Shown here: positions 3,630-44,784 of the stretch, piece by piece
Position numbering within the stretch: the first letter of the stretch is position 1
Layout of the letters: the number at the start of each line of letters is the position of its first letter
Assembly: GCA_023145965.1 (NCBI GenBank)
Contig: JAGLDC010000109.1
Span: 1-44,816 of the forward strand
Reading direction: 5' to 3'
From: a bacterium
GTDB taxonomy: Bacteria > UBP14 > UBA6098
Length of the DNA: 44,816 nucleotides
Translations under genes and position numbers: made by a program
The notes under the pieces: model-generated
Databases searched by the model: none
Told to the model about the DNA's origin: nothing
What the model saw: the letters and a program-made list of their open reading frames with translations, nothing else

Positions 3630-3775
3630 GGCGCTGGCGCGGGTGGTAGGGAAACGAAGGCACGAAATTTGCCATTGCAAATTTCATGACAGAGTAGAGG
3701 AATAATGGATTTTTGCGGGTGAAAATAGCTCTATCAAAATTAGATTAGCGAAATAGCAAAAATCGTGACAGCGCC
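3630..3775. repeat. Mosaic multi-hairpin intergenic element A
   Basis: A GC-rich island in AT-rich intergenic DNA. Terminal arms GGCGCTG (3630-3636) and CAGCGCC (3769-3775) pair. Inside are the perfect hairpin 3664-3672 / 3677-3685 (GAAATTTGC, 4-nt loop) and the pair 3708-3716 / 3756-3764 (GATTTTTGC). It shares GCTGGCGCG with element B and GCCGGTCG (3773-3780) with E and F. It lies downstream of the C25 peptidase gene and upstream of the PAS-GGDEF promoter. The rest of the 3505-3860 gap holds only that promoter and the 3' hairpin of the peptidase gene. Confidence 0.5.
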
Positions 3776-3794
3776 GGTCGTAAGGATAAATCTT

Positions 3795-3856
3795 AAAAGC
3801 GCGCGACTTTTTGATAGGGGATAGTTGCTTCTTATTATTTTTAGCCGCGCACTTTT
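3795..3856 (-). terminator. Possible 3' hairpin of the C25 peptidase gene
   Basis: 13-nt arms (3795-3807 and 3844-3856) pair at 11 of 13 positions around a 36-nt loop, 4 nt after the peptidase stop codon. On the minus strand the stem ends in a short TTTT. It may be a terminator or a 3' stabilising structure; the large loop makes this uncertain. Confidence 0.35.
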
Positions 3857-3860
3857 AATT

Positions 3861-6800
3861 TTATTTTATTAAACTAATTTTTCGAGTTTGCATGAAAGCC
3901 TGATCGTTATTTTGTGTTATAACACACATCTTGCAAAAATATGCACCTGATGGTAAATAGTCTCCAATCATACTTCTTCCATTCCAGGTTGTTTTATAAG
4001 TGCCAACTTTCAGGAAGTCCCGGACAATACTTGCTATCCTAATTCCCGCAAGGTTATATATGTCGATGGTTATATACGATTCGAAAGAAACATCAAATTC
4101 TATGTCCACTGTAGTATTGAATGGGTTTGGAACCGGATGCGCCAGAAAAAAGCTATTTGGGCAACATTTCAACCCATTTTCGCAAACTATTACCGATAAT
4201 TCTGAGTCAGCTACACATAACGAATCGCGGAATTCGCTTGTAAGATCGATATAATCCGGCGCTTTTAAAGTATCAAAATAGCAGAAATCTGCCTCGATAA
4301 CAGCATCAACACCATCAAAAGTCCATTCGGATAAGTCGGAGTAAAAACAGTTATGACCCGAACTACCACTACCAAAATCCAAGTGGCCCTCAGCTAAAAC
4401 ACAAGCATGAGTGAAACCTTCGAAAATGCAATTCCGGGCCGAAGTTTGACTCTTTTCTGAAGTAATCATATTATATTTACCTAAATTTGCATTGAATTGA
4501 CAAGCGGAAAAATCGCTCTCCCCACGGTTTATAATAGCGGTTCCCGGACCACCGAATATACAATTATAGAATTCCACGCTTGTAAAAACCTCGATTTGGC
4601 ATCCATAGGAAGAAGGCGTTTGAAAAATACAATTGTCAACAGATATCGAATTATCTTCACTATCAAGCTTTAAACCAGGAGCACCATCAAAGCAAGAACC
4701 ATAGATACATGACAATGATCTCCATCCAGTTAGCTCGACCGGACAATAAAAATTGCAGTCATTAATTGAAACTCTAGCTCCGCTTTTACAAGAATCACCA
4801 TCGATGAACATATTATCGCAGTCGATGAAACTCACAGACAATAATGAGCATGCACCGCAACTCCCAGCAGAACCAACCATTTCAACGACACTAGCATTTC
4901 TAATGTCGGCATGTTCGATAATAAGACTCCCGCCTTTAAGGGCGAAAATACCACCCAAATTATCATCGATGGTTCCTATTGGCAATCCAATAGAAATTGG
5001 ATTTTCGACAGTTCCCTTTATGTAAAGGCACGATGCTTTGCCCTCGCAGATAATTTCAGGACCTGCTAGCCCCGAATCACTTTCAGATCGACAACAAGTA
5101 ACGCTTGTGCCATCCAAAACAAATAGCGTATCCTCAATACCTACAGCAATTTGACCGAATATTTTGACATCGTCCCAAATATGCGTGTTTTCTATAAAAC
5201 ATGTCGCTGTCAAAATTTGAAAATCTTTATATCCAGGTTTTTTAATGAGCAATCGCATTGGAATACTCGGCTCGATATCGAACGGAAGGGCATATTCACC
5301 CGAAGTTTTTAGGCTTTCGCTGAAAATAAACCTTATCGAATCGCCTACTTGAATTAAAATCAATACCTGTTCTATAGGAACGCTACATTCGCTCGATGTA
5401 ATCATTATTACATCTTCTTCCCAGTCGATATCTACGGACATATGAGCTGTATCGAGAATCGATAGACCATCCGAATCCGGGGGATTTGGGAGACTACAGA
5501 GTATGTCAAATAATTCATTGTGAGACGGTGAAGATGAAGGTGCAATTGTGCTTTCAGGGAACGCGAGGGCACCATTACCTCTGATATTATAAAAATAGCC
5601 CTTACCCTCAGCGATTCCTATACTTGGCTTGAAATACCCAAGACAGGCATCGTAATAAAAAACAAAGCTCGACGAAATCTCCGTGCCACTACCAGTAAAA
5701 GTGTGAGATGTCTGCCAGGGTAAGCTATTAGCAGCCATGGAAATCGAGCCAATGGAATTCCATCCATCGATGACATCGATATCCCAGTGAAGAACCCCGG
5801 AGCCGAAAATCGAAAATGTATCGGTCGGGGCAGAAAATCTAGCCCAATATCCCTTCGATGGCTCAGGAATTTCTTCACATACATCGATGAATTCATGTAA
5901 TGCGGGATTCCATTGGAGAACTTGTTCCACTCCTGGAAGTATCTCGCCGAGTGTGCCGTAGCAAACCTCGACTGGAATAGAAATGAAATTCCAGCCTTCG
6001 TTAAGATTATAAGTAATTACCGAATCCTCATATTCAAGTAAGATAACTGGCAATTTTACAGTTTTTGTAATGAAGTCCCTTTTTGTGCAAGAAATATAAA
6101 GCGTGTCTTCATCGGGGTTAAGGTCCAATGCTGCGGCGATTTCATCAGAAGAAAAACTAACTTGATTACAGCCGTAGGGAATGACTTTGTAAAGTGGGGT
6201 TATATCATCGTTGAAATTGGTTGTGACACATATTTTTGTATCGTGAAGCCACCTCGCGGGTCCATCGGCATACACAGTTACATAAAGGCTGTCACCTGTT
6301 AAGTCATCGTGAATGTAATAGCAATCAGGGGAGGTCATTACAACATATTTTGAAGGTTCGTTTGGGCCATAAAAGCGAGTGAGTGGATCTCCTAGCAGCC
6401 TAGGCGACCAAATAAGGTAATTCCGCCATGCATCGCCGACGAGTTTTTGATATGCTCGAATTCTAGAAACAAAATCATGTGAATCGCCGCCATCGGTTAT
6501 GCCACCATAATAAAAAAGCGCACCTCGCCCTGTAAATTCATAACCAAACTCTCGGGCGGTTTGGCATCCGCCGGAGATAACACCGGTGGGATAACCCAGC
6601 TGGTGAAACAGAAGATTATAAGAGGTTAAAGCCCCTTCCCCTGAACCACAACACCCTCCCCCACTTTTATACCATGAGCCGTAATTGCCGTGGCCAAAAT
6701 GCCATACAACACCGTATTTATCGTTTTCGAGCGCCGAAACGATTGAATCATTAAGGGCGCGGACTGTCCCGAGTGGAAGCATGCCCATTGTTGTGTCGTG

Positions 6801-8045
6801 GCAAGTGTAATGCGTAAGATCGAAGCCAACGCTTCGAATAATAGATTCCTGGGCCAGCGCATCGACATAGCCATATATTATATCTGTTGTTTGAGAAACA
6901 AACATGAAGTCATTCCAATGGCCACCGGGTAACCATTCACTCTCATTTTGAATAATTCGGTCGACAAAACCTTCAGTGCCATAAGCGCTATAGTTATTAA
7001 CAGCCCATATCCTTCCAACACCGAGTTGAGGAAGATAAATTGGGAGAGAATATGCAGATTCCGTTATCGGAGGATGTGTAGCATTAAGGAATTTCATTCC
7101 GGGAAGACTATCCATATCGCAGTAGTCGGGACCTATCAGGCCAACATAGCTTAAATCGCCGTAACAATCGAAGGTATCAGCTATGAACATTCGTATCCAT
7201 GTTGTCTCCGACTCTGAGGGATAGATGCTATCGTAGATATCGTATATATCACGAGCGTTGACGGAATGGACTCTCCATCCTTGTTTATAGCGAAATTCGG
7301 CCAATTTTGCAGCACATTCTTCGTAATAGCCATTCGAGTGGTCAGCATAGATATAAAGAACTTGATAGCTCGAAGGTTCTGAAATTAAAGTATATGGAAG
7401 AGAATGGAGATTCAAAAAGTGTGATAGATATACATCCTCGAGCCATGATTCGAGACTGATTTCGCCATAATCACCATCGGCTGAGAGTCTAAGCTTAACC
7501 TTTCTATGAATTCGCAACGAATCACAAGAGGGATTAAACGAGTATAATTGAAAGCGGATAAAGGCTGCGCACAAAGACCTCCAAGGCGATACTCCCCTGA
7601 CAGTCGCGATATCTTTATAAAGCCAATCATTGGAGGAATACATCAAATTATCCAAACACCATTCGGATTCGCAACCGCTATAGTAGGGCGCGATTTTGAT
7701 GTCTCCAATCGTAGTGTCATCGACCTCGATAATGTCTAAATGCACATTCTTTGTCGATGGAATAGCGAGGGCAAAATCTAAGATTAGACTTGCAGGAGCA
7801 TTTGCGGATTCGCCGAAGTTCTTGAACCTTGAATTTGGTGCTTTAATGAAATGGAAACATGAATCTTCGATGAAGAAAGAATCGATTACAATGTCTGGAG
7901 TGGAAATAACTATTGTAATAGAATTCGGATTATCCTGTTCGATTTTGATAAAGTTATTTTGTGCGCTAATTGCAGCGACACAGATCAACGCAGTTATTAT
8001 TGACACATATAATTTAACTTGGTAACGATTAGCTATCTTCATCAT
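3861..8045 (-). CDS. Secreted C25 (gingipain-family) cysteine peptidase with beta-helix region and sorting domain
   Basis: 1394 residues. A signal peptide covers about residues 1-28 (hydrophobic YVSIITALICVAAISA). The caspase-like C25 peptidase domain spans about 225-560, with the catalytic His in FGHGN (about 451) and the catalytic Cys in SGGCQTAREF (about 492), both present. A 'GWNFISIPV' beta module follows near 680. Residues about 1030-1250 contain short repeats typical of a right-handed parallel beta-helix (GGIFALKGGSLIIEHADI). The last 85 residues (from VPNPFNTT) are a PNPFN-type sorting domain. This predicts an active extracellular or surface protease exported by a type IX-like system. 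An AAAGG site precedes the first ATG, and a second ATG follows directly. It is transcribed alone from 8074-8102. No secretion machinery lies in the window. Confidence 0.9.
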   Translation of the reverse strand: MMKIANRYQVKLYVSIITALICVAAISAQNNFIKIEQDNPNSITIVISTPDIVIDSFFIEDSCFHFIKAPNSRFKNFGESANAPASLILDFALAIPSTKNVHLDIIEVDDTTIGDIKIAPYYSGCESEWCLDNLMYSSNDWLYKDIATVRGVSPWRSLCAAFIRFQLYSFNPSCDSLRIHRKVKLRLSADGDYGEISLESWLEDVYLSHFLNLHSLPYTLISEPSSYQVLYIYADHSNGYYEECAAKLAEFRYKQGWRVHSVNARDIYDIYDSIYPSESETTWIRMFIADTFDCYGDLSYVGLIGPDYCDMDSLPGMKFLNATHPPITESAYSLPIYLPQLGVGRIWAVNNYSAYGTEGFVDRIIQNESEWLPGGHWNDFMFVSQTTDIIYGYVDALAQESIIRSVGFDLTHYTCHDTTMGMLPLGTVRALNDSIVSALENDKYGVVWHFGHGNYGSWYKSGGGCCGSGEGALTSYNLLFHQLGYPTGVISGGCQTAREFGYEFTGRGALFYYGGITDGGDSHDFVSRIRAYQKLVGDAWRNYLIWSPRLLGDPLTRFYGPNEPSKYVVMTSPDCYYIHDDLTGDSLYVTVYADGPARWLHDTKICVTTNFNDDITPLYKVIPYGCNQVSFSSDEIAAALDLNPDEDTLYISCTKRDFITKTVKLPVILLEYEDSVITYNLNEGWNFISIPVEVCYGTLGEILPGVEQVLQWNPALHEFIDVCEEIPEPSKGYWARFSAPTDTFSIFGSGVLHWDIDVIDGWNSIGSISMAANSLPWQTSHTFTGSGTEISSSFVFYYDACLGYFKPSIGIAEGKGYFYNIRGNGALAFPESTIAPSSSPSHNELFDILCSLPNPPDSDGLSILDTAHMSVDIDWEEDVIMITSSECSVPIEQVLILIQVGDSIRFIFSESLKTSGEYALPFDIEPSIPMRLLIKKPGYKDFQILTATCFIENTHIWDDVKIFGQIAVGIEDTLFVLDGTSVTCCRSESDSGLAGPEIICEGKASCLYIKGTVENPISIGLPIGTIDDNLGGIFALKGGSLIIEHADIRNASVVEMVGSAGSCGACSLLSVSFIDCDNMFIDGDSCKSGARVSINDCNFYCPVELTGWRSLSCIYGSCFDGAPGLKLDSEDNSISVDNCIFQTPSSYGCQIEVFTSVEFYNCIFGGPGTAIINRGESDFSACQFNANLGKYNMITSEKSQTSARNCIFEGFTHACVLAEGHLDFGSGSSGHNCFYSDLSEWTFDGVDAVIEADFCYFDTLKAPDYIDLTSEFRDSLCVADSELSVIVCENGLKCCPNSFFLAHPVPNPFNTTVDIEFDVSFESYITIDIYNLAGIRIASIVRDFLKVGTYKTTWNGRSMIGDYLPSGAYFCKMCVITQNNDQAFMQTRKISLIK

Positions 8046-8073
8046 TAGCCTTTTGATACATTAATTTAAAGCC

Positions 8074-8102
8074 AATATATAAATATTTATACACTTTTTC
8101 AA
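8074..8102 (-). promoter_or_regulatory. Promoter of the C25 peptidase gene
   Basis: On the minus strand there is TTGAAA (8097-8102), a 17-nt gap and TATATT (8074-8079), about 30 nt before the start codon, in very AT-rich DNA. Confidence 0.6.
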
Positions 8103-8251
8103 GTAATTTATTAATTTTTTGTAAGTCAAAAGAAATTATTTTATTTAAACAAACGATTAGGCAGATAATGAGACGAATTGATGGCGGTATTTAAAGGTAA
8201 TCCACATATTATTAGCGATGCGACTTTGAGCCAAACTTTCATTCATTTTCA

Positions 8252-8278
8252 TTGCTTTCGAGTCGAAATTCGTATATT
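8252..8278 (+). promoter_or_regulatory. Candidate promoter of the YchF-like operon
   Basis: A good -10, TATATT (8273-8278), is preceded by TTGCTT (8252-8257) with only 15 nt between them, so the -35 is weak. It lies just upstream of the AAGGAGG site at 8291-8297. Confidence 0.4.
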
Positions 8279-8303
8279 CTATTGAAATTTAAGGAGGTAT
8301 TTT

Positions 8304-9350
8304 ATGTTATGGGCTATGGTCGGTCTCGCAAGTAGTGGTAAATCGACATTATTTAAATTGATGACAAACAAAGGCTCCTCAGGTAAAAGCGGCAAGGGCC
8401 TCGACATTGCGGTTGCACATGTCCCCGATCCTCGCGTAAGCGTGCTGGTTGATATATTCGATCCCAAGAAGATAAGCCCTGCCGAAATTGAGTTTGCAGA
8501 TACTTTAGGTGCGGTTGGTTCGGGGGGTGCTGTTTTCTCCGAGCTTCAATCTGCGGGTGCAATGATATATTGCCTTCGAGCTTTCGATAGTGTTTTCGGT
8601 GATCCTACGCCTATAAAGGATTTTCGCGATCTTATGGGCGAATTGGTTCTTTTTGACTTGAATATTCTCGAGCACAAGATGGAGAGCATTGAAAAATCTC
8701 TTCGCACTGCCAAACCCGAGGTAAAGATTCGTATCGAGAATGAGATGAAAATTATCGAAGTGCTGAGAGCGCATCTGGAATCGGGTGGCCTCATTCGCGA
8801 CCTCGAGCTTGATCCCATTCGCGCAGAGATAGTTTCTAATTTCGGGCTTCTCACCGCAAAGCCTGCAGTAGCTGTTTTCACATGCGGCGAGGATTATTAT
8901 TGTAATAGAGACCGTTTAATTAATGAGTTAGATTCCGCATTCTCAGGTCTTCCCTCACTTGCCATTATGACACTAACCGAGCTGGAGCTTAACGAGTTAG
9001 ATCATGAATCTGCGGAGATCTTTCGTGAAGAATATAATTTGACTGAGCCTGTTATCGACAGGTTTATCATGAAAGCTTATGATGCAGCGGGGATCATAAC
9101 ATTTTTCACCTGCGGAGAAAAAGAGGTTCATGCATGGCCTATTCGCAAGGGGTCCAATGCTCTCGAAGCTGCGGGGAAGATACACACTGATTTGGCAAAG
9201 GGATTTATTCGTGCCGAGGTGGTTTCTTACGAGGACATACTAAAATATCATGGTTGGGCCCAGGCGCGTAATGCCGGGCATCTTCGAGTCGAGGGCAAGG
9301 AATATATTGTCGAGGATGGCGACACGATTGTAATTAAATTTGCGCTTTAA
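8304..9350 (+). CDS. YchF/OLA1-family P-loop NTPase (divergent)
   Basis: 348 residues, close to the usual 360 of YchF. The P-loop is GLASSGKST (residues 7-15), where YchF normally has GLPNVGKST. The C-terminal third matches the YchF helical and TGS-like end very well (TDLAKGFIRAEVVSYEDIL, then HLRVEGKEYIVEDGDTIVI). The switch motif reads DTLGA where YchF has DIAGL, and TCGED stands near where the NxxE nucleotide-specificity motif is expected, so this looks like a diverged paralogue rather than the standard housekeeping copy. YchF proteins are cytosolic ATPases that bind ribosomes and respond to stress. AAGGAGG (8291-8297) sets the ATG start. It is the first gene of an operon with the DUF401 permease 3 nt downstream. 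Confidence 0.85.
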   Translation: MLWAMVGLASSGKSTLFKLMTNKGSSGKSGKGLDIAVAHVPDPRVSVLVDIFDPKKISPAEIEFADTLGAVGSGGAVFSELQSAGAMIYCLRAFDSVFGDPTPIKDFRDLMGELVLFDLNILEHKMESIEKSLRTAKPEVKIRIENEMKIIEVLRAHLESGGLIRDLELDPIRAEIVSNFGLLTAKPAVAVFTCGEDYYCNRDRLINELDSAFSGLPSLAIMTLTELELNELDHESAEIFREEYNLTEPVIDRFIMKAYDAAGIITFFTCGEKEVHAWPIRKGSNALEAAGKIHTDLAKGFIRAEVVSYEDILKYHGWAQARNAGHLRVEGKEYIVEDGDTIVIKFAL

Positions 9351-9353
9351 AAT

Positions 9354-10559
9354 ATGTCCGCTACTCTTGTTGTTATAATTGCTGCGATAATATTTATTGT
9401 ATCGGTCAGGCTTAAGGTTCCGCTGGGTATAGCTTTCACTGTTAGCGGGATAGTCCTTGGTTTTCTTTCGGGGATGGGTGTTGTCGAGGTTTTATCGACA
9501 TCGGGTAAATGGCTAATTTCTGAAGACACAATCGGGCTAATACTTATTGTTTACTTTTTGGGTCTCATGGGGGTTATTCTCGGCGAACTCGGTTGGCTTT
9601 CGAGAACTGTCAGATCGTTAAAAAGGTTAATACCTAATAGCAAGATAAGCTCTGTTTTACCTGCGAGTTTGATAGGTTTTCTTCCAATGCCAGGCGGCGC
9701 GATGCTTTCCGCGCCACTTGTCGAGGAGGGTGCAAAAACGATGGAACTCTCACGGGAGAGATTGACTTTCCTTAATTTCTGGTTCAGACATCTATGGGAA
9801 TACACATGGCCGCTTTATCCCGGTATTATTCTATCGACTGTTCTTCTCGATGTCCCTGCTAGTAAGCTAATTTCGTCGATGTGGTATCTTTCTGTTTTTT
9901 CGATAATCCCCGGACTGGTGATAGGTTTTCGTGGTGTAAAAAACGCAGGCAAGAATGATATTAAAGAAATCGGTCTTATGTTGGCGATAAAGGATTTCTT
10001 GATAACGACTTGGTATATCTGGGCTGTAGTTTTTTTCGTGTTATTTCTGGGATTCGAGATACTTCCTATTGTGGCGATTGCGTCAATGATTACTCTGCTT
10101 ATTTTAAGGCAAAGCGATAAGAAAAGATTGGAGCATCTTAAAAAGGCTTTTTCGATTAAGGTTATCGGGCTTATCGCCGGAGTAATGATATTCAAGGGAA
10201 TACTTGAATCGAGCGGTACGGTCGAGGTTTTGGCCAAGGAAATAGCAGGTGTTCCCGAGGTAGTATTACTTTTCTTGGTTCCTTTTTCGATTGGGATAAT
10301 AACTGGTGTTAATTCGGCTTTTGTTGGTTTGGGATTTCCTGTGTTGGTTCCGCTTATAATGAAGAATGGTTTCGATGCGGGGAATTTCGCTTTTGCTTAT
10401 ACCGCCGGATTTCTTGGAGTTCTGTCGAGCCCTGTTCATTTATGTCTTCTATTGACTAAGCAGTATTTTTATGCGAGTTGGTCGGGCATATATAAATTCC
10501 TTGCCCCGGCTGTAATTTCCGTTTTTCTTGCATCTATTGTGCTTCTTTTAATTCAATAG
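9354..10559 (+). CDS. DUF401 family integral membrane protein
   Basis: 401 residues with about ten hydrophobic segments across the whole length. The motifs PMPGGAMLSAP (from about residue 111) and NFWFRHLWEY are the hallmarks of the DUF401 family, which resembles anion or citrate-type permeases with two inverted halves. A second conserved reentrant-like stretch (SAFVGLGFPVLVPL) lies in the C-terminal half. The substrate is unknown. The gene follows the YchF-like gene by 3 nt and is translationally coupled to it, without a clear ribosome binding site of its own. Family assignment is firm; transport function is inference. Confidence 0.85.
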   Translation: MSATLVVIIAAIIFIVSVRLKVPLGIAFTVSGIVLGFLSGMGVVEVLSTSGKWLISEDTIGLILIVYFLGLMGVILGELGWLSRTVRSLKRLIPNSKISSVLPASLIGFLPMPGGAMLSAPLVEEGAKTMELSRERLTFLNFWFRHLWEYTWPLYPGIILSTVLLDVPASKLISSMWYLSVFSIIPGLVIGFRGVKNAGKNDIKEIGLMLAIKDFLITTWYIWAVVFFVLFLGFEILPIVAIASMITLLILRQSDKKRLEHLKKAFSIKVIGLIAGVMIFKGILESSGTVEVLAKEIAGVPEVVLLFLVPFSIGIITGVNSAFVGLGFPVLVPLIMKNGFDAGNFAFAYTAGFLGVLSSPVHLCLLLTKQYFYASWSGIYKFLAPAVISVFLASIVLLLIQ

Positions 10560-10594
10560 ATAGTATTTGGCACCAAAAGTGCAATATCGTATAT

Positions 10595-10661
10595 GGCTCT
10601 CGGCACCTGCGGTGTGCATTTCCCCTCCTTTCCTTTCCCAACCGCATGCCGGGGGCTTTTT
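10595..10661 (+). terminator. Long hairpin plus T-run: terminator or attenuator
   Basis: A 17-bp stem (10595-10613 with 10641-10657, three G-T pairs and a 2-nt bulge) encloses a 27-nt pyrimidine-rich loop and is followed by TTTTT. It separates the DUF401 gene from the next gene. The loop contains CTCCT (10625-10629), complementary to the AGGAG ribosome binding site at 10676-10680 of the downstream gene, so it may also control translation. Confidence 0.6.
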
Positions 10662-10684
10662 AGATATAAATAACGAGGAGTAAT

Positions 10685-11161
10685 ATGGAAAAAACAATAT
10701 ACGGCTTCATTATGGTGATAGTGGGCTTGGCTTTTATCTTGTTTCTTTACCAATTCATGTTAACTGCCAAGATACGTCGTGGTGTCAAGCTCATGCTTAA
10801 GTGGTTTGATTATATTATCGATAATCCAACAGATTTCGATTTCAAGACCACCCGCGAATTGGGTGAGGATGTCGATAGATATTTTCAAAGCAAGGATATT
10901 GGGAAAAGGGTGATGTATTTCGCGCCTAAGCTCAAAGACTACATTGTTGACAGATACGGTAAATTGCCGGGCGAAACCAATGAGGACGCATTCTGGCGGC
11001 TTGCTCATTGGGAGGGTGACCATGTGCGTTTTGATGTCTATTGGACAATGATTCAGGGTGGTTTTGCCGAGTATGCAGAGGCACTTAGTAAGGGCAAACG
11101 GCCAACATTCGCGGGTGTTTCAGCACCGATGGCGATAATAAGAAAATACTGGAAGATGTAG
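10685..11161 (+). CDS. Small membrane-anchored protein of unknown function
   Basis: 158 residues. One N-terminal membrane segment (about residues 5-27, IYGFIMVIVGLAFILFLYQF) is followed by a soluble, mixed-charge domain of about 130 residues rich in aromatic residues near its end (FDVYWTMIQGGFAEYAEAL). I recognise no family. GAGGAG (10675-10680) directly precedes the ATG and supports the start. The gene stands behind a long hairpin whose loop can pair with this ribosome binding site, so it may be regulated separately from the DUF401 operon. A weak hairpin with a T-run follows. Confidence 0.75.
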   Translation: MEKTIYGFIMVIVGLAFILFLYQFMLTAKIRRGVKLMLKWFDYIIDNPTDFDFKTTRELGEDVDRYFQSKDIGKRVMYFAPKLKDYIVDRYGKLPGETNEDAFWRLAHWEGDHVRFDVYWTMIQGGFAEYAEALSKGKRPTFAGVSAPMAIIRKYWKM

Positions 11162-11174
11162 AATTAGTTGACAA

Positions 11175-11197
11175 CCCTCGATATTGCTCGGGTTTTT
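11175..11197 (+). terminator. Weak terminator after the small membrane protein gene
   Basis: A short stem (CC.CGA with TCGGG, one bulged T, 6-nt loop) is followed by five Ts, 14 nt after the stop codon at 11161. The stem is only about 5 bp, so confidence is low. Confidence 0.35.
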
Positions 11198-11268
11198 GAT
11201 ATATTAGCGTTGTTTACGCTTTTCGGGATTGCTTACCTTTAAGAAAAAACAGGAGATATCCTATAGTC

Positions 11269-11558
11269 ATTCACAAGCGGACTCGATTAACGCCGATGCA
11301 ACGGCAAGAGATTTATGATGCCCATTTCAAAAAGAAGAGAAGAGTGTGTGACCTCGCGCGCGAGTATCATGTTTCGAGGCCGACAATATACAAGAGCACA
11401 AACGCGCGTTTTCGATGCCTTCACTATGGTATCAAACGACTTGAAAAGGTCGAGGCAATCGAAGAGCGGCTTAAACAGCGTAGCGTTATAACAAGGACTA
11501 TCCGGGTCAAATGATACACGGCAACACCAAACGGCTTCCGCTTCTCGAAGGCCAGTGA
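11269..11558 (+). pseudogene. Relic of an IS481-like DDE transposase
   Basis: The first frame reads KRTRLTPMQRQEIYDAHF then CDLAREYHVSRPTIYK, a helix-turn-helix typical of the N-terminus of IS481-like transposases. It runs on to a stop at 11514. From 11484 a different frame gives RYNKDYPGQMIHGNTKRLP, which resembles the start of the DDE catalytic core (family pattern PGELIHIDTKKL). It contains Asn where the first catalytic Asp is expected and stops at 11556. A segment also appears to be missing between the helix-turn-helix and the following STNARF stretch. There is no good start codon; the first ATG is 11296, and an AGGAG lies at 11251. Frameshift, deletion, premature stop and truncation together mark it as dead. 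No terminal inverted repeats were found. Confidence 0.6.
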
Positions 11559-11628
11559 AGAGTCACCGAACTCGGTTTCGTGCAGATAAGATAAGACAAT
11601 ACTTAAATATAAACAATTACAAGCTCGG

Positions 11629-11645
11629 AAGCCCTGGGCTTTTTT
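11629..11645 (+). terminator. Short hairpin with T-run
   Basis: AAGCC, a 3-nt loop and GGCTT lead into a run of Ts. It could be a terminator left from the transposase relic. Confidence 0.35.
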
Positions 11646-11727
11646 TATAAACAAACTTTAAAATATATGAGGGATTTTCTTGTCGAGTAATAATTGAGGT
11701 TAAAATATCTTAACCGGCGAATGTGAT

Positions 11728-11801
11728 TGGCTGGGGAGCAGGGATTCGAACCCCAATTGGCGGATCCAGAGACCGCTGTCCTGCCATTGGACGACTCCCC
11801 A
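11728..11801 (-). tRNA. tRNA-Gln (anticodon CTG), CCA encoded
   Basis: On the minus strand a full cloverleaf folds. The acceptor stem TGGGGAG / CTCCCCA has 7 perfect pairs. The D stem is GTCC / GGAC. The anticodon stem is GCGGT / TCCGC, with a T-T mismatch at 31-39, and the loop CTCTGGA gives anticodon CTG. The T arm is TGGGG, TTCGAAT, CCCTG. Discriminator G and CCA are encoded (11728-11731). The TGGGG...CCCCAGCCA frame matches glutamine tRNAs. It decodes CAG. A near-consensus promoter lies just upstream (11816-11844). Confidence 0.95.
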
Positions 11802-11815
11802 TCAATACTTTGTTG

Positions 11816-11844
11816 AATATATTTAGCCGGAATTAACATGTCAA
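11816..11844 (-). promoter_or_regulatory. tRNA-Gln promoter
   Basis: On the minus strand there is TTGACA (11839-11844), exactly 17 nt, then TATATT (11816-11821). The expected start is about 8 nt before the mature tRNA 5' end. Confidence 0.8.
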
Positions 11845-11873
11845 GGTTTTTTTCTTCTGGTGTTCACGCGGTA

Positions 11874-11901
11874 TTGACTTGTTAATAAGAGTTATTATAT
11901 T
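11874..11901 (+). promoter_or_regulatory. Promoter of the 11949-23119 operon
   Basis: TTGACT (11874-11879), a 16-nt gap and TATATT (11896-11901), giving a leader of about 40 nt before the ATG at 11949. It is divergent from the tRNA promoter. Confidence 0.7.
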
Positions 11902-11948
11902 GGAATAAATATTCGAGAAGGATTTAGAGGGATTTTATCAGATTTAGT

Positions 11949-24737: not shown

Positions 24738-24855
24738 CCTAAGGGGAGCTGGCGCGAAATTTACCTCGGAGCAAAATGGTAATCTAAAAGCAGAATGCTA
24801 GACCGACCGGACGCAAGCGTCGAGCCAAAGGCTCGACAACCGACGTCCCTCAAGG
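24738..24855. repeat. Mosaic multi-hairpin intergenic element B
   Basis: A GC-rich island between the divergent dnaX and 25075 promoters. It contains a perfect 8-bp hairpin GTCGAGCC / GGCTCGAC (24819-24826, 24830-24837) and a GACG / CGTC hairpin (24810-24821), with an imperfect outer pairing of 24738-24747 to 24846-24855. It shares GCTGGCGCG with A, GGAGCAAAAT (24768-24777) with D, and CCGACCGGAC (24803-24812) with F. The rest of the gap up to 24982 is AT-rich, with one inverted repeat ATTTAGT / ACTAAAT (24928-24945). Confidence 0.5.
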
Positions 24856-30886: not shown

Positions 30887-30900
30887 GGGGGGCGCCCCCC
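30887..30900. repeat. 14-bp GC palindrome (element G)
   Basis: GGGGGGC followed by GCCCCCC is a perfect palindrome in the convergent gap 30776-30918. Its inner GGGGGCGCC is identical to the left arm of element C. It could be a collapsed copy, with arms but no interior, or a bidirectional transcription block. Confidence 0.45.
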
Positions 30901-33777: not shown

Positions 33778-33932
33778 GGGGGCGCCAAATTTCTTAGCCC
33801 CAAGAAAAGTTAGCTTTCCTTGGGGCTGAGAAATCAGCGTAAGGCCGAAGTTAAATATATAGCAAAAAACCTCGATTATCTACCGCCCTTCCGCTCACCT
33901 TCGCGCTGACCATCGCGAAGGCCGGTGCCCCC
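33778..33932. repeat. Mosaic multi-hairpin intergenic element C
   Basis: Terminal arms GGGGGCGCC (33778-33786) and GGTGCCCCC (33924-33932) pair over 9 bp with one G-T. Inside, 33789-33834 forms a hairpin with 16 continuous pairs (one G-T), extended after one mismatch by four more. CCTTCGCG / CGCGAAGG (33898-33905, 33914-33921) forms a second. It shares CCAAATTTCT (33785-33794) with E and the arm GGGGGCGCC with G. It lies between two divergent promoters and fills most of the gap 33745-33983. Confidence 0.55.
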
Positions 33933-35736: not shown

Positions 35737-35743
35737 TGTCATT

Positions 35744-36196: not shown

Positions 36197-36197
36197 A

Positions 36198-36225: not shown

Positions 36226-36231
36226 AATTAA

Positions 36232-36462
36232 TTATGTTTTTTTCCGAAGCAAATTATTTTCCTCAGATATCTCATCCAATTGTTTCTCAAGTATCTTCTG
36301 TCTATCTGTAGGTTTAGTAATTATATACTTATACATCATTAGCAGAGAGACCATCAGAATCGCACCGGCAATAGTCACATGATAGAATGCCTCGAGATTT
36401 AAGGCGCTCGAAAGTATCATCGCTATTGATAAAATTATTATTGCGAGAGCCCAGAAAAACAT
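36232..36462 (-). CDS. Small membrane protein with C-terminal coiled coil
   Basis: 76 residues. Two membrane helices (about 3-22, FWALAIIILSIAMILSSAL, and 29-49) are followed by a charged helix with heptad character (DRQKILEKQLDEISEENNLL). No family is recognised. Its ATG directly follows the stop codon of the foldase gene upstream (stop and start adjacent), so it is translationally coupled. It may be a small partner of the envelope, but nothing more can be said. Confidence 0.72.
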   Translation of the reverse strand: MFFWALAIIILSIAMILSSALNLEAFYHVTIAGAILMVSLLMMYKYIITKPTDRQKILEKQLDEISEENNLLRKKT

Positions 36463-37374
36463 CTATTCGAATACTTTATCCAAGTTTTCGTAATAAATAG
36501 TAACAATGGCTTTTTTGCGGAGTTCCTTCTTTTTTTGCTCATAAACTTCGTTGAATTTGCGCTGAATAAGTTCCCGTTTTATATCTTCTTTGACCTTTTC
36601 AAAGGCTGTTTTTCCTTCGGGCGTTTTCTCGATGACTTTTGCAGTAATATAGTTATCGCCATGCTGCTTAATAGGGCCGACGATATCACCGACTTCGGCG
36701 TCGTTTAAGACAAGCATCATTTGCATATATGGATCTAAGTTTTCGTCGGAACTGTTTGTCCCATCATTCATTTCACCATTTTCTTCGTTTCTATTTTTAT
36801 ACAGATGCATGTCCTCGATTTGAAATCGAGTGTTTTCGATGTCGTCTTCTTTTATGTTTTTTAACTCCAAAACATCCTCTTTGGCCTTTTCTTCGTTCTC
36901 AGACCAGATCTTTATTACCTTAGCCATTGCAGGTTGACGGAATCGCCCCTCCATATCATATTCTGCGCGAATTTCGTCTTCACTGGGTTGAATAGAAGCC
37001 TTAATTACTTTTTCCTGATAAAAATTAATCAATAAATTCTCTTCAAAATTGGAAACCATTGCCTGAAACTCTGGATCATTATTCAAGTCAGAAGCCTTTG
37101 CTTCTTTGATAATTAGCTTATTATCTATTACTTCATTCAGTATTCTCTCTTTGTCATCATCCATAAGGCCGCCTCGAGAATTACCCTCGTTGGACATCGA
37201 ATTAAACTCCTTGAATCGATAATACATCTCAGGCTGGTAAGATTCAATATCCTTGATAGTTACACTCTGATCGCCAACTTCCGCTACTATATCAGCCGGT
37301 GCATTGCCTTGAGCAAGAATTGTAGCCGAAATAAACGCAATGAAAAGCGCTAAATAGAAATTTCTTTTGTTCAT
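36463..37374 (-). CDS. Exported parvulin-type peptidyl-prolyl isomerase / SurA-like chaperone
   Basis: 303 residues from the ATG at 37374, chosen because AGGAG (37380-37384) lies 5 nt upstream and a signal peptide begins there (NFYLALFIAFISATILAQ). The frame is open 15 codons further upstream without support. Residues about 25-140 form a SurA/PrsA-like helical domain (ADIVAEVGDQSVTIKDIE). The C-terminal part has a parvulin-like end (GDIVGPIKQHGDNYITAKVIE). An acidic insertion (NEENGEMNDGTNSSDEN) interrupts the isomerase domain, so its activity is doubtful. It probably helps fold exported proteins. Promoter at 37404-37432. Confidence 0.8.
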   Translation of the reverse strand: MNKRNFYLALFIAFISATILAQGNAPADIVAEVGDQSVTIKDIESYQPEMYYRFKEFNSMSNEGNSRGGLMDDDKERILNEVIDNKLIIKEAKASDLNNDPEFQAMVSNFEENLLINFYQEKVIKASIQPSEDEIRAEYDMEGRFRQPAMAKVIKIWSENEEKAKEDVLELKNIKEDDIENTRFQIEDMHLYKNRNEENGEMNDGTNSSDENLDPYMQMMLVLNDAEVGDIVGPIKQHGDNYITAKVIEKTPEGKTAFEKVKEDIKRELIQRKFNEVYEQKKKELRKKAIVTIYYENLDKVFE

Positions 37375-37403
37375 TTTGTCTCCTGTTTTTGTGTTTATCT
37401 TTA

Positions 37404-37432
37404 TTAATATGTTATTCAAAACTAAATATCAA
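37404..37432 (-). promoter_or_regulatory. Promoter of the SurA-like gene
   Basis: On the minus strand there is TTGATA (37427-37432), 17 nt, and TATTAA (37404-37409), about 30 nt before the ATG. Confidence 0.55.
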
Positions 37433-37540
37433 TTCCATCTTTTATTATAAACGCGCACTTAGATATATGAAAGTTATTTTTTCTGAAATATAGTTTTCTC
37501 ACAATCGAGATTAAGAACAAACAAAATGACGAAGCATCTA

Positions 37541-37682
37541 GGGGCGTCGAGATCTTTTTTTATTTGAAAGCTCGCTTTCAAATAAAAAAAGATCAGGCGA
37601 GCGGCCAAAACAAAAAAATACTAATATAATATTGGGCTGGCCGCACGCCATTTTGCTCTGTAGGAGCAAAATCCGACGCCCC
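37541..37682. repeat. Mosaic element D: perfect four-way-junction structure
   Basis: The outer stem GGGGCGTCG / CGACGCCCC (37541-37549, 37674-37682) is perfect. It encloses three hairpins: 37551-37570 / 37575-37594 (20 perfect bp, loop CTCG); 37596-37607 / 37638-37649 (11 of 12 bp, AT-rich loop); and 37650-37658 / 37664-37672 (9 perfect bp, 5-nt loop). Only 3 nt in the junction are unpaired. It shares GGGGCGTCG and AAAGCTCGCTTT with F and GGAGCAAAAT with B. It lies downstream of ligA, in the gap 37433-37708. Confidence 0.65.
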
Positions 37683-37708
37683 GAAAATCAGGTTAAAGCG
37701 GAATCGAG

Positions 37709-39941
<2,233 letters not shown>

Positions 39942-40064
39942 AAGCATATTTTTGAAGCAATGTTCTTTAAACAATTAGGTCTATTTATTGAGTTTGTATA
40001 ATACCGATTTCAATCTATTATGATTGAATAATTGCAATGCAGAAAAAATGTTAAAAAATTCTAC

Positions 40065-40093
40065 TTGCAATGAACCTACTTGCGATATATTAT
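40065..40093 (+). promoter_or_regulatory. Promoter of the PpiD-like gene
   Basis: TTGCAA (40065-40070), 17 nt, and TATTAT (40088-40093). The leader is about 43 nt and contains GGAGG (40129-40133). Confidence 0.6.
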
Positions 40094-40142
40094 TACCGTT
40101 TAATGTCAATATCCATCGTTTTGAGGTTGGAGGTTTAGTAAT

Positions 40143-42011
40143 ATGGCTCAATCGGCAGTTCTGAGATTCCTAAGAAAGAGAATGAAAGTGATATTCTGGT
40201 TTACTGCTATCGTTTTCATTGGGCTTGTTATTTTTGGATGGGGCGCAGATATCACAGGAAGGTCTCGCAGAGACCTCGATGCTAACATCGCGGGGAAAGT
40301 GGAAGATTATGAAATTACATACCCGATGTATCGTAACGCCATTCAATCCGAATATGAACAAGCATACCGCGAAGAAAGACCAATCACCGAAGCTGAATCG
40401 GAAATAATCGCCGATAGGACATGGTACACATTGGTTAATAGGTATATTGCTGAAAAGCAGTTCAAGGCTAAGGGCTTTGGAGAACTCACTCCGTCCGAGA
40501 TTTTTGAATCGCTTAGAAGAAATCCTCCCGAAGCCGTTAAAAGGCTCCCTTCTTTTCAACAGGATGGGGTTTTTAGCAAGGAGCTTTTTCAACAGTATTT
40601 GGGAAATCCTCAAGTCGATTGGCTTCCGGTGGAAATGCTTGTTCGCAATAAATTACCATATGACAAACTTCGCCAAATAATCAGCGCAACCTCGTTTGTC
40701 AGCAATGGTGAAGCTATATCCGAATTCGAGTATAAAAACACTCAAGCTGATGTCAGTTTCATCTCTATGGATCCATTCTCAATCGAAGATGTATCCATTG
40801 ACACAAGTTCTGCATCGCTGGAAGCTTATTATACCAAGAATAAGGAAAAATATCGCAGGCAAGAAACGGCTATAGTAAATTATGCCAAACTACCCGTTTA
40901 CCCCTCTCCTAGCGATACAATGGAAGCTAACGCTTTTGCAGAAAGCCTACTTGTTCGAATTCAGGATGGCGAAGATTTCGCATATGTTGCGGAATACTTT
41001 TCCGATGATCCCGGAAGCAAAGAAAATGGTGGCTATTTAGGATGGATTACTCGAGGCCAGATGATACCCGAATTCGAAGAAGCGGTTTTTTCCGCCGATT
41101 CAGGCGAATTAGTTGGTCCGGTTCTCACACAATTCGGCTATCATTTGATCCGTGTCGAAAACAAAGAAGGCGAAGAGGATTCTCTCAGAGTCGACGTGTC
41201 TCACATCCTGCTTACAATCGAACCTTCCCTAGATACTGAAGACTCTGTCACTACGCTCGCAAGAAATATTGTGATTGCAGTTGGAGATAGTGACAATTTT
41301 GCTGAATACGCCGAGGCTCATGGAGTCGATTCCATGGGCATATCAATACCGACTATAGAAAATGGTCCTGTGCCGGGTATAGGCTATTTAGAACGAGCAA
41401 AGACTATGTTGTTCAAGAGCAAAGAGGGTAGCATTGAGAGCTTTGCTGTTCGTTTCAACGAGAGACCAACTGTTGAAGGCTTGACAGTTCTTCAACTGGT
41501 TAAAAGATATTCCGCCGGTATTCCAACATTTGCTGAAATTCACGACGAAATCGCAGCCGATATAGTTAAAGAAACTCGTGAACAAGCCGCTCTCGAATTA
41601 CTTGAAATGGCCAAGGGTTTGATAGATGCTGGCAAAGATATGCCAACCGCCTCCAAAGAAGTCGGAGCTATCTATAATACCACCGGTCTTTTTAGCATGA
41701 ATATGTGGGTGGAGAGTGTCGGTAACGACCCGATTTTTAAGGGACGAGTGTTTGGTCTAGGTCAACAAGGCCGTATCAGCAAAACCTTCCTTGGCCAGGA
41801 CGGAAAGGCCTATATCGTTAAAATCGAACAATTCATACCGGCCAATCCACAAGATTTTGCAAATCTTGCTGTATCAATTAAAAATGAACTTCTCTGGGGA
41901 TACAGACAGGATATTTATGATCGCTGGTTCACAGATCAAAGAGATAAAGCGGAAATTGTCGATAATAGGTTCGCGGAAGAATTCGCTATGCCTTCCGAGG
42001 AAACAGAATAA
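40143..42011 (+). CDS. PpiD-like membrane-anchored peptidyl-prolyl isomerase / chaperone
   Basis: 622 residues, PpiD length. The N-terminus has the basic stretch RFLRKRMKVIFW and one membrane anchor (about 15-33, FTAIVFIGLVIFGWGAD). A SurA_N-like helical chaperone domain follows (about 40-230), then a parvulin domain at about 245-345 (FAYVAEYFSDDPGSKENGGYLGW then VLTQFGYHLIRVEN), well conserved. A second, weaker isomerase-like segment begins near 350 (VDVSHILLTIEPS). It faces the periplasm and assists folding of exported proteins. GGAGG supports the ATG. It is transcribed alone; a terminator follows within the end of rlmB. Confidence 0.88.
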   Translation: MAQSAVLRFLRKRMKVIFWFTAIVFIGLVIFGWGADITGRSRRDLDANIAGKVEDYEITYPMYRNAIQSEYEQAYREERPITEAESEIIADRTWYTLVNRYIAEKQFKAKGFGELTPSEIFESLRRNPPEAVKRLPSFQQDGVFSKELFQQYLGNPQVDWLPVEMLVRNKLPYDKLRQIISATSFVSNGEAISEFEYKNTQADVSFISMDPFSIEDVSIDTSSASLEAYYTKNKEKYRRQETAIVNYAKLPVYPSPSDTMEANAFAESLLVRIQDGEDFAYVAEYFSDDPGSKENGGYLGWITRGQMIPEFEEAVFSADSGELVGPVLTQFGYHLIRVENKEGEEDSLRVDVSHILLTIEPSLDTEDSVTTLARNIVIAVGDSDNFAEYAEAHGVDSMGISIPTIENGPVPGIGYLERAKTMLFKSKEGSIESFAVRFNERPTVEGLTVLQLVKRYSAGIPTFAEIHDEIAADIVKETREQAALELLEMAKGLIDAGKDMPTASKEVGAIYNTTGLFSMNMWVESVGNDPIFKGRVFGLGQQGRISKTFLGQDGKAYIVKIEQFIPANPQDFANLAVSIKNELLWGYRQDIYDRWFTDQRDKAEIVDNRFAEEFAMPSEETE

Positions 42012-42036
42012 TCAAACATAACTCTTTATCACAGAA

Positions 42037-42765
42037 TTATAAGGCCAGCTTAAAGCTGGCCTTTTTTTGTGTTAATTCCCAAAGTATAATCGATGCCGCC
42101 ACAGATACATTAAAACTATCGAAATCCGAGCTCTGCGGAATAGAAACAACTATATCGGAATAGGTTCTTACCTTCTTTCGCAGTCCATCTTCCGATCCCA
42201 TAACAACAAGAAGCTTATTGGAAGGAAGAAAGGAAGCTATCGAAGCCGAATCTTCAGATGGCATATCCGCACAAATGATTTGAAAGCTGCGCTCTCTAAA
42301 AAGATTCAATGTATGCATTAGGGATTCAACCCTCGCTATAGCGATATGCTCGGTGCCTCCAGCACTTGCCTTACAAACAACCGGCGTAATATCCGAGGAA
42401 TTCTTCCTTGGAATAATTATGCCATCTACACCAAAAAGCACAGAGCTGCGAATAATCGCGCCTAAATTTCTAGGATCGGTAATTCCATCCAAAGCGAGAA
42501 TGATACCACTGGAAAGATAGAACAAGGAATCTATACCGACAAATGAATATTTGTCGGCACTAGCAACTATGCCTTGATGGTCGGTTCTTCCAGAAATATC
42601 ATTTATTTCTGCCTTTGATACTATCGATAGAGAGGTTCTATCTATCGATAGATAATTGCGAATTTTTTTATAGGTGGCTTTTGTAGCCCAAACACGATGG
42701 ATACGCCTGAAATTGGCAACCTCGATCACAGCGTTTTTTCCATAAATAAGCTCGGTTTCATTCAT
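42037..42765 (-). CDS. rlmB: TrmH/RlmB-family rRNA (guanosine-2'-O-)-methyltransferase
   Basis: 242 residues, family length. An N-terminal substrate-binding domain (ELIYGKNAVIEVANF opening, DHQGIVAS) precedes the SPOUT knot. All three motifs are present: DPRNLGAIIRSSVLFG, LLVVMGSEDGLRKKV and SFNVSVAASIILWEL. It methylates a ribose in 23S rRNA using SAM; RlmB is the best fit, but a tRNA-acting TrmH relative is possible. The last ten codons encode the terminator hairpin of the convergent PpiD-like gene. It begins 1 nt after the stop of the upstream outer-membrane gene and is cotranscribed with it. Confidence 0.88.
   Translation of the reverse strand: MNETELIYGKNAVIEVANFRRIHRVWATKATYKKIRNYLSIDRTSLSIVSKAEINDISGRTDHQGIVASADKYSFVGIDSLFYLSSGIILALDGITDPRNLGAIIRSSVLFGVDGIIIPRKNSSDITPVVCKASAGGTEHIAIARVESLMHTLNLFRERSFQIICADMPSEDSASIASFLPSNKLLVVMGSEDGLRKKVRTYSDIVVSIPQSSDFDSFNVSVAASIILWELTQKKASFKLAL
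42041..42068 (+). terminator. Terminator of the PpiD-like gene, embedded in rlmB
   Basis: AAGGCCAGCT / AGCTGGCCTT (42041-42050, 42054-42063) with a 3-nt loop leads into seven Ts (42062-42068). On the other strand the same bases encode the end of rlmB (residues KKASFKLAL). Confidence 0.92.
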
Positions 42766-42766
42766 A

Positions 42767-44431
42767 CTATCTCCAATAATATGAGCAAGTTAATCTGAAT
42801 TCAGACAAAGCGTCCTTATCTATTTTATCATATACTGCAAGTCGGTATTCTGCAAGCCATATTATAGGGCCGGAGTTGAAATTACTTCTTAACCTCAATG
42901 CCCAATAACCACTGTTATCGGAATTTATATCTGTTTTAGTGCGTTTCAAAAGGAACCTTATTTCGAACGGTTCAAAACCATTTGAGAATATCTCGACATT
43001 TGTGGATATACCATCGTTAGTCTTCTCGTTCAAGTTTGAACGGCGAAATCTGAAATATCCCGAGGCATTTAAACCAGGAACAAGTGGCCAATACCCAAAA
43101 AACCTCACTGTTTTCTGAAGTCTCTCCCCTGTCGAAAGCGTCCTCTTTTCCCAAGCCAATTCACCTCTTAACCTTTTACCATTATCAGAGCGAAACTGGA
43201 GGGCTGCCTTACTCGCAACACCCCAATCTTCAGTCATAACAGTGCGCCATGCGCTTTGATCAAAATCAAGCGAAATTTTATTCTCTATCTTAGCAGTGAG
43301 CTTAAGTTTCGCTCCCTCCTCCCCCGCTTGCTTGGAATCCATAATTACATCGGATTCGCCCAATTCGATATTTGTTTTGCGGTAATCGGATTCGCCATTA
43401 CCGTGTAGTGGATAGAACTCATCGGAATATTTCCAAGCAGCCACGAGCGAACGAACATTCTCGAATTTCGTAACAACGCTGATATCGGCGCCTATGTTAC
43501 CCGACTCCGAAAAGCCAATTTCATAATCTAAACTGGTTACATCGAAAACAGAATTCCCGAAAACGGAAGCACAGCCTTGTGTAAATACAGGCGCTGTTTC
43601 CAAAGTATTTTGCACTCTTCCAAAAGAATAAATAGCACCGATTTTATGTAATTTCGTCGGCGAAAGACATAGCTTCGAGCCTAAAGCATCTACAATAACC
43701 GAATTATAAACCACTCGACTTAAGACAAAACCGGTCTCAATATTCCCGAATAAACCTTCATATCGCAGGCCATTAAATAGATTATCCACCGGTGTTGATA
43801 GAGAACTCCAGTTTGTATTGTCGCGCCGAGCACCCGGAACATGAAATGCCTTACCCAAAATAAGCCCATTACCAAAACCCTTGCTGAAGCTCCCAAGTGT
43901 TAAAGCACTATTCTTGTATTTTACATCTAAGGTTCGTCTTCTGAAACTGAAACTCTCTTCATCGATAAAACGACACTCCGCTTTAATAATCTCTGTTCCG
44001 ATGTCGATTGTTCCATTTGTAGTCGGTATGTCATTCTCGATAAGCTTCCCATGAGTGTAAATCTTGGCGTTCCCATGGACAGATCGCTTTTCCTCTTCCT
44101 CGAAATATATAAAAGCCTCTATTCGCTCAAAATCAAAGGGAAACCAACGAATAAAAACATCCCGATTTGCATAATATCCAGCATTGCCGCGTGCCTCCTC
44201 AATAGCCTTTACCCATCGTTCATCAACCCCCGGAACAACTAAAAGCGGCGTGAGGTCACTACATACAAGGTTAACTTTGTCTCGCATAAGCTCAAGTAAC
44301 TCATAATATTGTGTGTAGCTTATTTCCTCACGCGAAAGCGCTTCCAAAATATCATCCTCGGAGGTTAAATAATCCCCCGGATCGAAAGCGAAAACCGAAA
44401 ATATAATAAGTAAAAAAACGCTTTTCTTCAT
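42767..44431 (-). CDS. Predicted outer-membrane beta-barrel with N-terminal helix-hairpin-helix-like region
   Basis: 554 residues from the ATG at 44431, where a signal peptide starts (KKSVFLLIIFSVFA); 12 codons of upstream open frame lack support. Residues about 18-85 resemble a helix-hairpin-helix (LTPLLVVPGVDERWVKAIEEA), a feature seen fused to barrels in some FCB proteins. The rest (about 110-554) alternates hydrophobic and polar residues in strand pairs, with many aromatic residues at strand ends (SGYFRFRR, GYWALRLRSNF), and ends with an aromatic residue close to the terminus (SYYWR), as in outer-membrane barrels. The substrate is unknown. It is the first gene of an operon with rlmB. Confidence 0.68.
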   Translation of the reverse strand: MKKSVFLLIIFSVFAFDPGDYLTSEDDILEALSREEISYTQYYELLELMRDKVNLVCSDLTPLLVVPGVDERWVKAIEEARGNAGYYANRDVFIRWFPFDFERIEAFIYFEEEEKRSVHGNAKIYTHGKLIENDIPTTNGTIDIGTEIIKAECRFIDEESFSFRRRTLDVKYKNSALTLGSFSKGFGNGLILGKAFHVPGARRDNTNWSSLSTPVDNLFNGLRYEGLFGNIETGFVLSRVVYNSVIVDALGSKLCLSPTKLHKIGAIYSFGRVQNTLETAPVFTQGCASVFGNSVFDVTSLDYEIGFSESGNIGADISVVTKFENVRSLVAAWKYSDEFYPLHGNGESDYRKTNIELGESDVIMDSKQAGEEGAKLKLTAKIENKISLDFDQSAWRTVMTEDWGVASKAALQFRSDNGKRLRGELAWEKRTLSTGERLQKTVRFFGYWPLVPGLNASGYFRFRRSNLNEKTNDGISTNVEIFSNGFEPFEIRFLLKRTKTDINSDNSGYWALRLRSNFNSGPIIWLAEYRLAVYDKIDKDALSEFRLTCSYYWR

Positions 44432-44511
44432 ATCCGATTGTGTAGCAAACTGAGAATCACAAATCAAGATTATCAGTTATAGACTTGAAAAAAAGGGTAT
44501 TTAATCGTCTT

Positions 44512-44548
44512 AAATTGGGGATATGAAGTGTCAGAAATTGGGGATATG
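44512..44548. repeat. 14-bp direct repeat, period 23
   Basis: AAATTGGGGATATG occurs at 44512-44525 and again at 44535-44548, separated by 9 nt including TGTCA. It could be a pair of regulator-binding sites upstream of the outer-membrane gene or the remnant of a mobile-element end. Confidence 0.5.
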
Positions 44549-44636
44549 GCTGCTTATGTCATGATATAATGATTTTTACACCTTAAGATATCTGAAAAAT
44601 ATCCAGTTTTATAAAATAAAATATATTCCAATCATC

Positions 44637-44784
44637 GGGGCGTCGGGCGTTGCGCATTCAGCCGCAACGCAGATGGCCGGTCGGCCAATAATGTCAGTCC
44701 GGAAACTATATTCCTCTCCGACCGGACAGCAATTTCGATGAACGAGAAAAGCTCGCTTTTCGAGAAGCCAGAAATCCCGACGTC
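44637..44784. repeat. Mosaic multi-hairpin intergenic element F
   Basis: The outer stem CGTCGGG / CCCGACG (44641-44647, 44776-44782) is preceded by GGGG, so the left end GGGGCGTCG matches element D exactly. Inside are GCGTTGCG / CGCAACGC (44647-44670), TGGCC / GGCCA (44674-44687), GTCCGG / CCGGAC (44697-44727) and GAAAAG / CTTTTC with loop CTCG (44746-44761), the last sharing AAAGCTCGCTTT with D. It also shares words with A, B and E. I see no gene from 44432 to the window end. Confidence 0.55.

Follow-up and report, generated by a model that had tools for sequence, protein, structure and literature searches.

REPIN and REP sequences with their RAYT transposases are dispersed, non-autonomous, extragenic palindromes near gene ends, with conserved outer arms, a variable interior and one Y1-type gene per genome. 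Compensatory interior changes are described for REPINs, and a 'clover' fold has been proposed as their active form (PMC3116915, PMC8266576). CGTC-tagged REPs are single stems of 8-9 bp with an unpaired CGTC tag (PMC3733652). The MITE-like repeats NEMIS/Correia, RUP, CIR, ERIC, YPAL and RPE are intergenic, species-restricted and bounded by terminal inverted arms (PMC2229807). Hairpins maintained by template switching, described for RNA genes in which many changes can pass via G-U, keep perfect stems by simultaneous double changes (PMC8794818).

We analysed a window of 44,816 nucleotides (contig C109 of the 2.52 Mb genome G000), together with the congeners G001 and G002 and, among five genomes of the bacterial family, G003 and G004. 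The window contains copies of an element that we call the cloverleaf. It shares with REPIN/RAYT systems all the features named above (with two Y1 genes in G002) and is, as a set of dispersed extragenic palindromes with a compensated interior, REPIN-like in an analogous architecture. However, a REPIN consists of two inverted REPs, whereas the cloverleaf has three separate hairpins in a four-way fold, in which we identified no GTAG foot to a REP hairpin and the stems are nearly free in sequence. Against the RAYT profile (REP_Tyr_transpos, cut-off 80) the Y1 protein reaches 16.7 bits, and its gene lies distant from the elements, unlike the transposase-flanking palindromes of REPIN/RAYT systems. 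The nearest known kind is the REPIN/REP palindromes, of which the cloverleaf is not a member, the defining RAYT association being absent. CGTC-tagged REPs share the preference for gene 3' ends and the letters CGTC, but here these letters are paired within the long closing arm rather than unpaired. The MITE-like repeats also match in size, yet the copies described here differ in nearly all stem letters and have no target duplication. Template-switched hairpins share the double changes, whereas wobble steps are nearly absent here. Integron attC sites are recognised by shape as a folded single strand of variable sequence. The cloverleaf resembles them in its shape-based fold with variable sequence, but we noticed neither cassette arrays nor a GTTRRRY core. 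In the open-licence literature we found no described bacterial cloverleaf repeat.

Islands of the window

The original prediction placed six islands (A to F) and one palindrome (G) of the window in a single class. Sequence check and folding found the islands and their arms in place. The fold z scores below compare single-stranded DNA with dinucleotide shuffles; that of island B alone is not significant.

3629-3776, plus strand: island A, of a second (A-type) family with about 50 matches in G000, 25 full or near-full copies aligned; closing arm CGCTGGCGCG/CGTGACAGCG, hairpin GCGCGAAATTTGC/GCAAATTTCGTGACA, arm GATTTTTGC/GCAAAAATC with an A-rich loop; fold z -3.2
24738-24855, plus strand: island B, probably a decayed or hybrid copy (tentative); covariance model 17 bits, E 0.28; fold z -1.3
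30887-30900, no strand: palindrome G (GGGGGGCGCCCCCC), two closing arms fused; candidate cloverleaf deletion scar
33778-33932, plus strand: island C, cloverleaf; covariance model 111.9 bits, E 2.6e-25; fold z -5.5
37541-37682, plus strand: island D, cloverleaf, 24 bp past the ligA stop; covariance model 117.5 bits, E 1e-26; fold z -13.0; its parts, read from the sequence, are the next five lines
37541-37549, plus strand: left closing arm GGGGCGTCG
37551-37594, plus strand: long hairpin, 20 bp stem, family-specific tip GAAAGCTCGCTTTC
37596-37649, plus strand: middle arm GGCGAGCGGCC/GGCCGCACGCC with a 32-nt A-rich loop
37650-37672, plus strand: short hairpin
37674-37682, plus strand: right closing arm CGACGCCCC
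39798-39941, no strand: island E, 13-bp GC closing arm, words in common with C (CCAAATTTCT) and F (GGCCGGTCGGC); fold z -4.3
44637-44784, minus strand: island F, cloverleaf in reverse orientation; covariance model 106.5 bits, E 6e-24; fold z -3.0

The single class stood in part: C, D and F form one cloverleaf family, A belongs to a separate family, and B and E are decayed or unplaced. One family for all six islands was rejected, A having neither a BLAST nor a profile link to C, D and F. These three connect only via other genomic copies, at about 63-66% identity (with eight other places). Island B carries on its left an A-like word (GCTGGCGCGAAATTT), and on its right it has the middle arm, the short hairpin and the right closing arm (CGACGTCCC) of a cloverleaf; it is tentatively taken as probably a decayed or hybrid copy. 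Island E gave no covariance model match at E<=1 and is possibly, again tentatively, a decayed cloverleaf copy. The words shared between islands are explained by the families, GGGGCGTCG being the closing arm, AAAGCTCGCTTT the long-hairpin tip and CCGACCGG the middle arm. The islands had been said to lie only between genes, and this holds: E overlaps the called ligA start, and because LigA homologues align only from about residue 46, we place it 5' of the true start.

Elsewhere in the window, positions 3861-8045 of the minus strand encode a large, 1394-aa protein in which a Peptidase C25 (gingipain-like) domain is matched weakly but significantly.

Cloverleaf and A-type copies across genomes

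About 1.09 Mb of G000 was compared with the islands, a structural scan added copies, and ten aligned copies (including C, D and F) gave the covariance model. A cloverleaf copy consists of a closing arm (GGGGCGTCG/CGACGCCCC) enclosing three hairpins, in about 125-170 bases. In the ten-copy consensus the closing arm is GGGGGGCGTCG/CGACGCCCCCC, the long hairpin has the tip GGAAAGCTCGCTTTCC, and the middle arm GGCCGG carries an A-rich loop starting GGAGCAAAAT, besides the short hairpin. Across species the letters are retained only in the closing arm and in the middle-arm loop motif GGRGCRRRAT, and the stems vary between copies; the closing arm is near invariant and forms a terminal inverted repeat of about 10-12 bp.

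Searching 25 genomes with the model, which scored part of the first-look candidates and so gives lower bounds, we detected at least about 28 places in G000, at least 4 in G001, at least 2 in G003 and at least about 41 in G002, a genome of the same genus whose LigA is 65% identical to that of G000; among the candidates scored there were no copies in the other 21 genomes. Homologous copies reach E-values down to 1e-34. The pattern GGCGTCG-N100-130-CGACGCC matched 55-56 places in G001 and 47 in G002; its reversed control matched 0. Since G001 scores only 4 places by the model yet 56 by the pattern, it holds the element at the same copy level with other hairpin sequences, and at least 49 copies were read from the fetched G001 DNA. 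There the middle arm is GCGAAGTAGTCGG/CCGACTACTTCGC, the short hairpin is GGCCGTNNACGGCC or GCGCGTNNACGCGC, and the long hairpin NNNNNTGCGATTTnnnAAATCGCANNNNN has a variable five-base block matched on both sides. The copies bear out a dispersed family of intergenic elements, here 118-170 bp long, with closing arms around internal hairpins and dozens per genome.

Outside the family there are no convincing copies. Many GC-rich genomes beyond the lineage (for example G195, G142 and G100) match the short pattern, as expected from GC-rich coding DNA, and were set aside; pattern matches in G004 and the listed places in G003 also resemble coding DNA. A virus- or plasmid-borne element was rejected: no IMG/VR contig has the exact arm pattern, in a scan that is specific rather than sensitive (the exact GGGGCGTCGG pattern misses the window's own copies), and the plasmid search gave no match.

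Several unusual copies were noted. At L142:7979-8148 both side hairpins of a cloverleaf copy are long (about 18-21 bp), and the model fits both strands equally. L199:3759-3890 and L189:3613-3737 in G001 are variant copies, one with an expanded short hairpin (GGCCACGCGGGGACGCGGGGCC), the other with all three hairpins unlike those of other G001 copies and the same closing arm. A third repeated perfect palindrome, (G)CRTAGGGGCAATTCATGAATTGCCCCTAYG(C), of about 30 bp, occurs at two places in G000 (L010:14459 and L032:1944).

Island A represents a second, sequence-conserved family as judged by its alignments, with about 45-50 matches in the G000 genome. An iterated profile search of 1.09 Mb gave 54, of which about 27 are nearly full length (about 145 bp) and many are half copies. 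The A-type is also present in G001, G002 and G003, and is absent from G004 and beyond, apart from one marginal short match in G017. Its closing arm has an invariant G.A mispair (25 of 25 copies) and a G.T mispair in 23 of 25, and both closing arm and hairpin carry TGGCGCG/CGTGACA, with the mispairs repeated in the hairpin. This suggests an asymmetric recognition site, and because of the invariant G.A and frequent G.T mispairs the A-type is presumably recognised differently from the cloverleaf. Between its 3' word AGCAAAAATCG and the loop motif of the cloverleaf (GGRGCRRRAT) there is a likeness that may be due to chance. A 24-mer from the A-type 3' end (AATAGCAAAAATCGTGACAGCG-like, 96% identical) was found at no fewer than 11 listed places in G002, separate from full A-type copies.

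Paired changes in the stems

Pairing in the cloverleaf is far beyond chance. In an alignment of 46 G001 copies the paired fraction of stem cells is 98.3%, compared with 91.5 +/- 0.3% for shuffled partners and 36-48% when the arms are slid. In the same copies 22 pairs changed on both sides (9.2 with shuffled partners), in 138 cells (36.7 shuffled), and the ten G000 copies have 34 double-changed pairs against 15.6 shuffled. One G001 pair is T-A in 22 copies and C-G in 24, with no intermediates; the adjacent pair is T-A in 19, C-G in 13, A-T in 9 and G-C in 4, with one mismatch. By parsimony on the G001 copy tree, both partners were replaced to give a new Watson-Crick pair at least 40 times, a count that rises to 103 when the tree is built from unpaired columns alone; single changes number 7-8, of which two produce G-U. 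The support that had been asked of the original prediction, dozens of copies with compensated stems, was thus found. Two short-hairpin types and two long-hairpin blocks occur in G001 in all four combinations; hairpins have therefore been exchanged or rewritten as units, in agreement with the proposal that stem modules are exchanged.

RNA would favour G-U on one strand. Isolated stem mismatches in the three species comprise 26 G.T and 21 A.C, with no strand polarity; the 8 G.T and 2 A.C of G001 alone are too few to decide. Relative to tandem genes, 28 copies have the same and 29 the opposite orientation. The covariance model matches both strands of most copies, and Rfam at the gathering threshold identified only a tRNA in the window. 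The absence of mismatch polarity and the random orientation to genes argue, at the level of sequence, for a DNA-level structure and not an RNA. On mismatch polarity, gene orientation and wobble counts we rejected the structured RNA that had been among the proposed roles. Terminator or mRNA-end function was likewise rejected, there being no orientation preference and the tracts flanking G001 copies (T left, A right) being the reverse of an intrinsic terminator.

Placement, candidate movers and competing explanations

Cloverleaf copies are intergenic, single and dispersed, without arrays, typically 10-50 bp past a stop codon, with starts usually over 60-80 bp away; placement after stop codons is what tolerated insertion predicts. 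Direct repeats in the flanks at element ends were no better than with shuffled partners, giving no sign of target duplication. Outside the arm, a copy's own two flanks pair with each other better than flanks taken from other copies (z 3.8 in G001 and 3.0 in G002, within 20 bp). In most G001 copies the left flank carries a T-tract at 19-22 bp and the right flank an A-tract at 18-22 bp, placed symmetrically about the element (L186-L225).

Among 54 gene gaps conserved between G000 and G002, 3 are occupied in both, 2 in G000 only, 3 in G002 only and 46 in neither, and clean occupied gaps facing short, empty orthologous ones exist between species. Two of the three doubly occupied places hold decayed copies in G000. 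Elements lie at the same end of orthologous genes in 6 cases between G000 and G002, 4 between G000 and G001 and about 8 between G001 and G002, against a chance expectation of about one per comparison that is a rough estimate and not a computed control. The gene end is the same in all but 2 orthologue matches, and island D has counterparts behind ligA in G001 and G002. The copies at orthologous places resemble each other no more than cross-species pairs drawn at random. This could mean that old places persist while each genome homogenises its copies, or that the same places have been hit more than once; the shared gene ends agree at least as well with old sites that have been maintained as with free movement. 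Palindrome G is the sole such palindrome in 1.19 Mb of G000. A complete cloverleaf follows the G001 orthologue of its upstream gene, while close behind the G002 orthologue there is other sequence and no cloverleaf, which makes G a candidate deletion or excision scar in a single case compared on the upstream gene side.

For a mover, we inspected recombinase genes and detected two tyrosine recombinase genes in G000 and the following transposase gene.

L154:1444-1845, minus strand: Y1 (HUH) transposase gene, IS200-like, 133 aa, single copy in G000

The Y1 gene occurs once per genome (twice in G002), at 49-72% identity across the five family genomes including G004, and is apparently inherited vertically. 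Its protein has IS200/IS605 as best NCBIfam match (46.9 bits, cut-off 55). The surroundings of the gene contain no cloverleaf or A-type end words, save one CGCTGGCGCG word about 340 bp off in G003, and G004 has the gene but no convincing element, so that the Y1 transposase is a candidate mover only. In the fetched DNA, which covers part of each genome, no transposase gene with the same closing arms is visible, and closing-arm words outside elements are few and single and flank no visible transposase.

On balance, we think that islands C, D and F (and, probably as degraded copies, B and E) belong to a dispersed, non-autonomous DNA element that is confined to one bacterial family. We infer that the element would act from an extruded or single-stranded state of one strand (replication fork, cruciform) and would be mobilised in trans: an enzyme encoded elsewhere would recognise closing arm, loop motif and shape, and would copy the element into or between gaps just past stop codons. 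Stem complementarity would be kept by one arm templating correction of the other (quasi-palindrome template switching), and copies would exchange hairpins with each other, which would also keep stems complementary. Template switching is our reading of the change pattern, and selection for perfect pairing could give the same pattern. Transposition is a candidate reading, weakened by the lack of target duplication and by the finding, among the loci fetched, of no autonomous relative that shares the arms. It is conceivable, though we are doubtful, that the element's identity lies mainly in how it folds: it would be recognised, as DNA, by its four-way cloverleaf, its stems would be rewritten pairwise within and between copies, and its sites would persist at fixed gene ends across species while the letters turn over fully.

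The element may have a mobile or a chromosome-organising role, as first proposed; the data favour a dispersed DNA element. A fixed chromosome-organising or protein-binding site (for example of a junction- or bend-binding protein), kept by selection and spread only in the distant past, would account for the recurrence at the same orthologous gene end, including the ligA 3' end in all three species, for the nearly invariant closing arm and for the equal use of both orientations. We nevertheless regard it as unlikely, as certain orthologous gaps contain an element in one species but are short and lack it in the other, the congeners differ in copy number, two of the three doubly conserved places are decayed in G000 and palindrome G has the appearance of a loss. 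An ordinary MITE, for which the closing arm would be the terminal inverted repeat recognised by a DDE transposase, would have just such an arm of about 10-12 bp, a length of 125-170 bp, an intergenic position, no internal gene and differences in presence and absence; but target duplication does not exceed shuffled pairing, the internal stems pair perfectly although each copy has its own, a property for which the ends of an ordinary MITE have no need, and no transposase gene with such ends was seen in the fetched DNA, leaving this explanation quite improbable. Strong conserved secondary structure with compensatory changes is also what a multicopy regulatory or small RNA would present, an explanation made very improbable by mismatches without G-U polarity (26 G.T, 21 A.C), by 2 wobble intermediates against at least 40 double changes, and by the lack of orientation to genes, the model fit on both strands and the lack of an Rfam match. 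Chance GC-rich palindromes linked by short words may perhaps explain island E and some words, such as GGAGCAAAAT in different parts of B and D; as a general account it is negligible, being refuted for A, C, D and F by dozens of homologous copies, their E-values and the structure controls.

A three-hairpin fold whose letters vary from copy to copy suggests that the cell recognises or maintains a DNA shape and not exact letters. Conserved position without conserved sequence across species is unusual for a dispersed repeat. The three species provide about 120 natural copies of one DNA fold with stems nearly free in sequence. These copies allow two questions to be tested: how perfect palindromes are kept without RNA selection (template switching or shape selection), and whether any bacterial protein uses structure to recognise four-way junctions in DNA.
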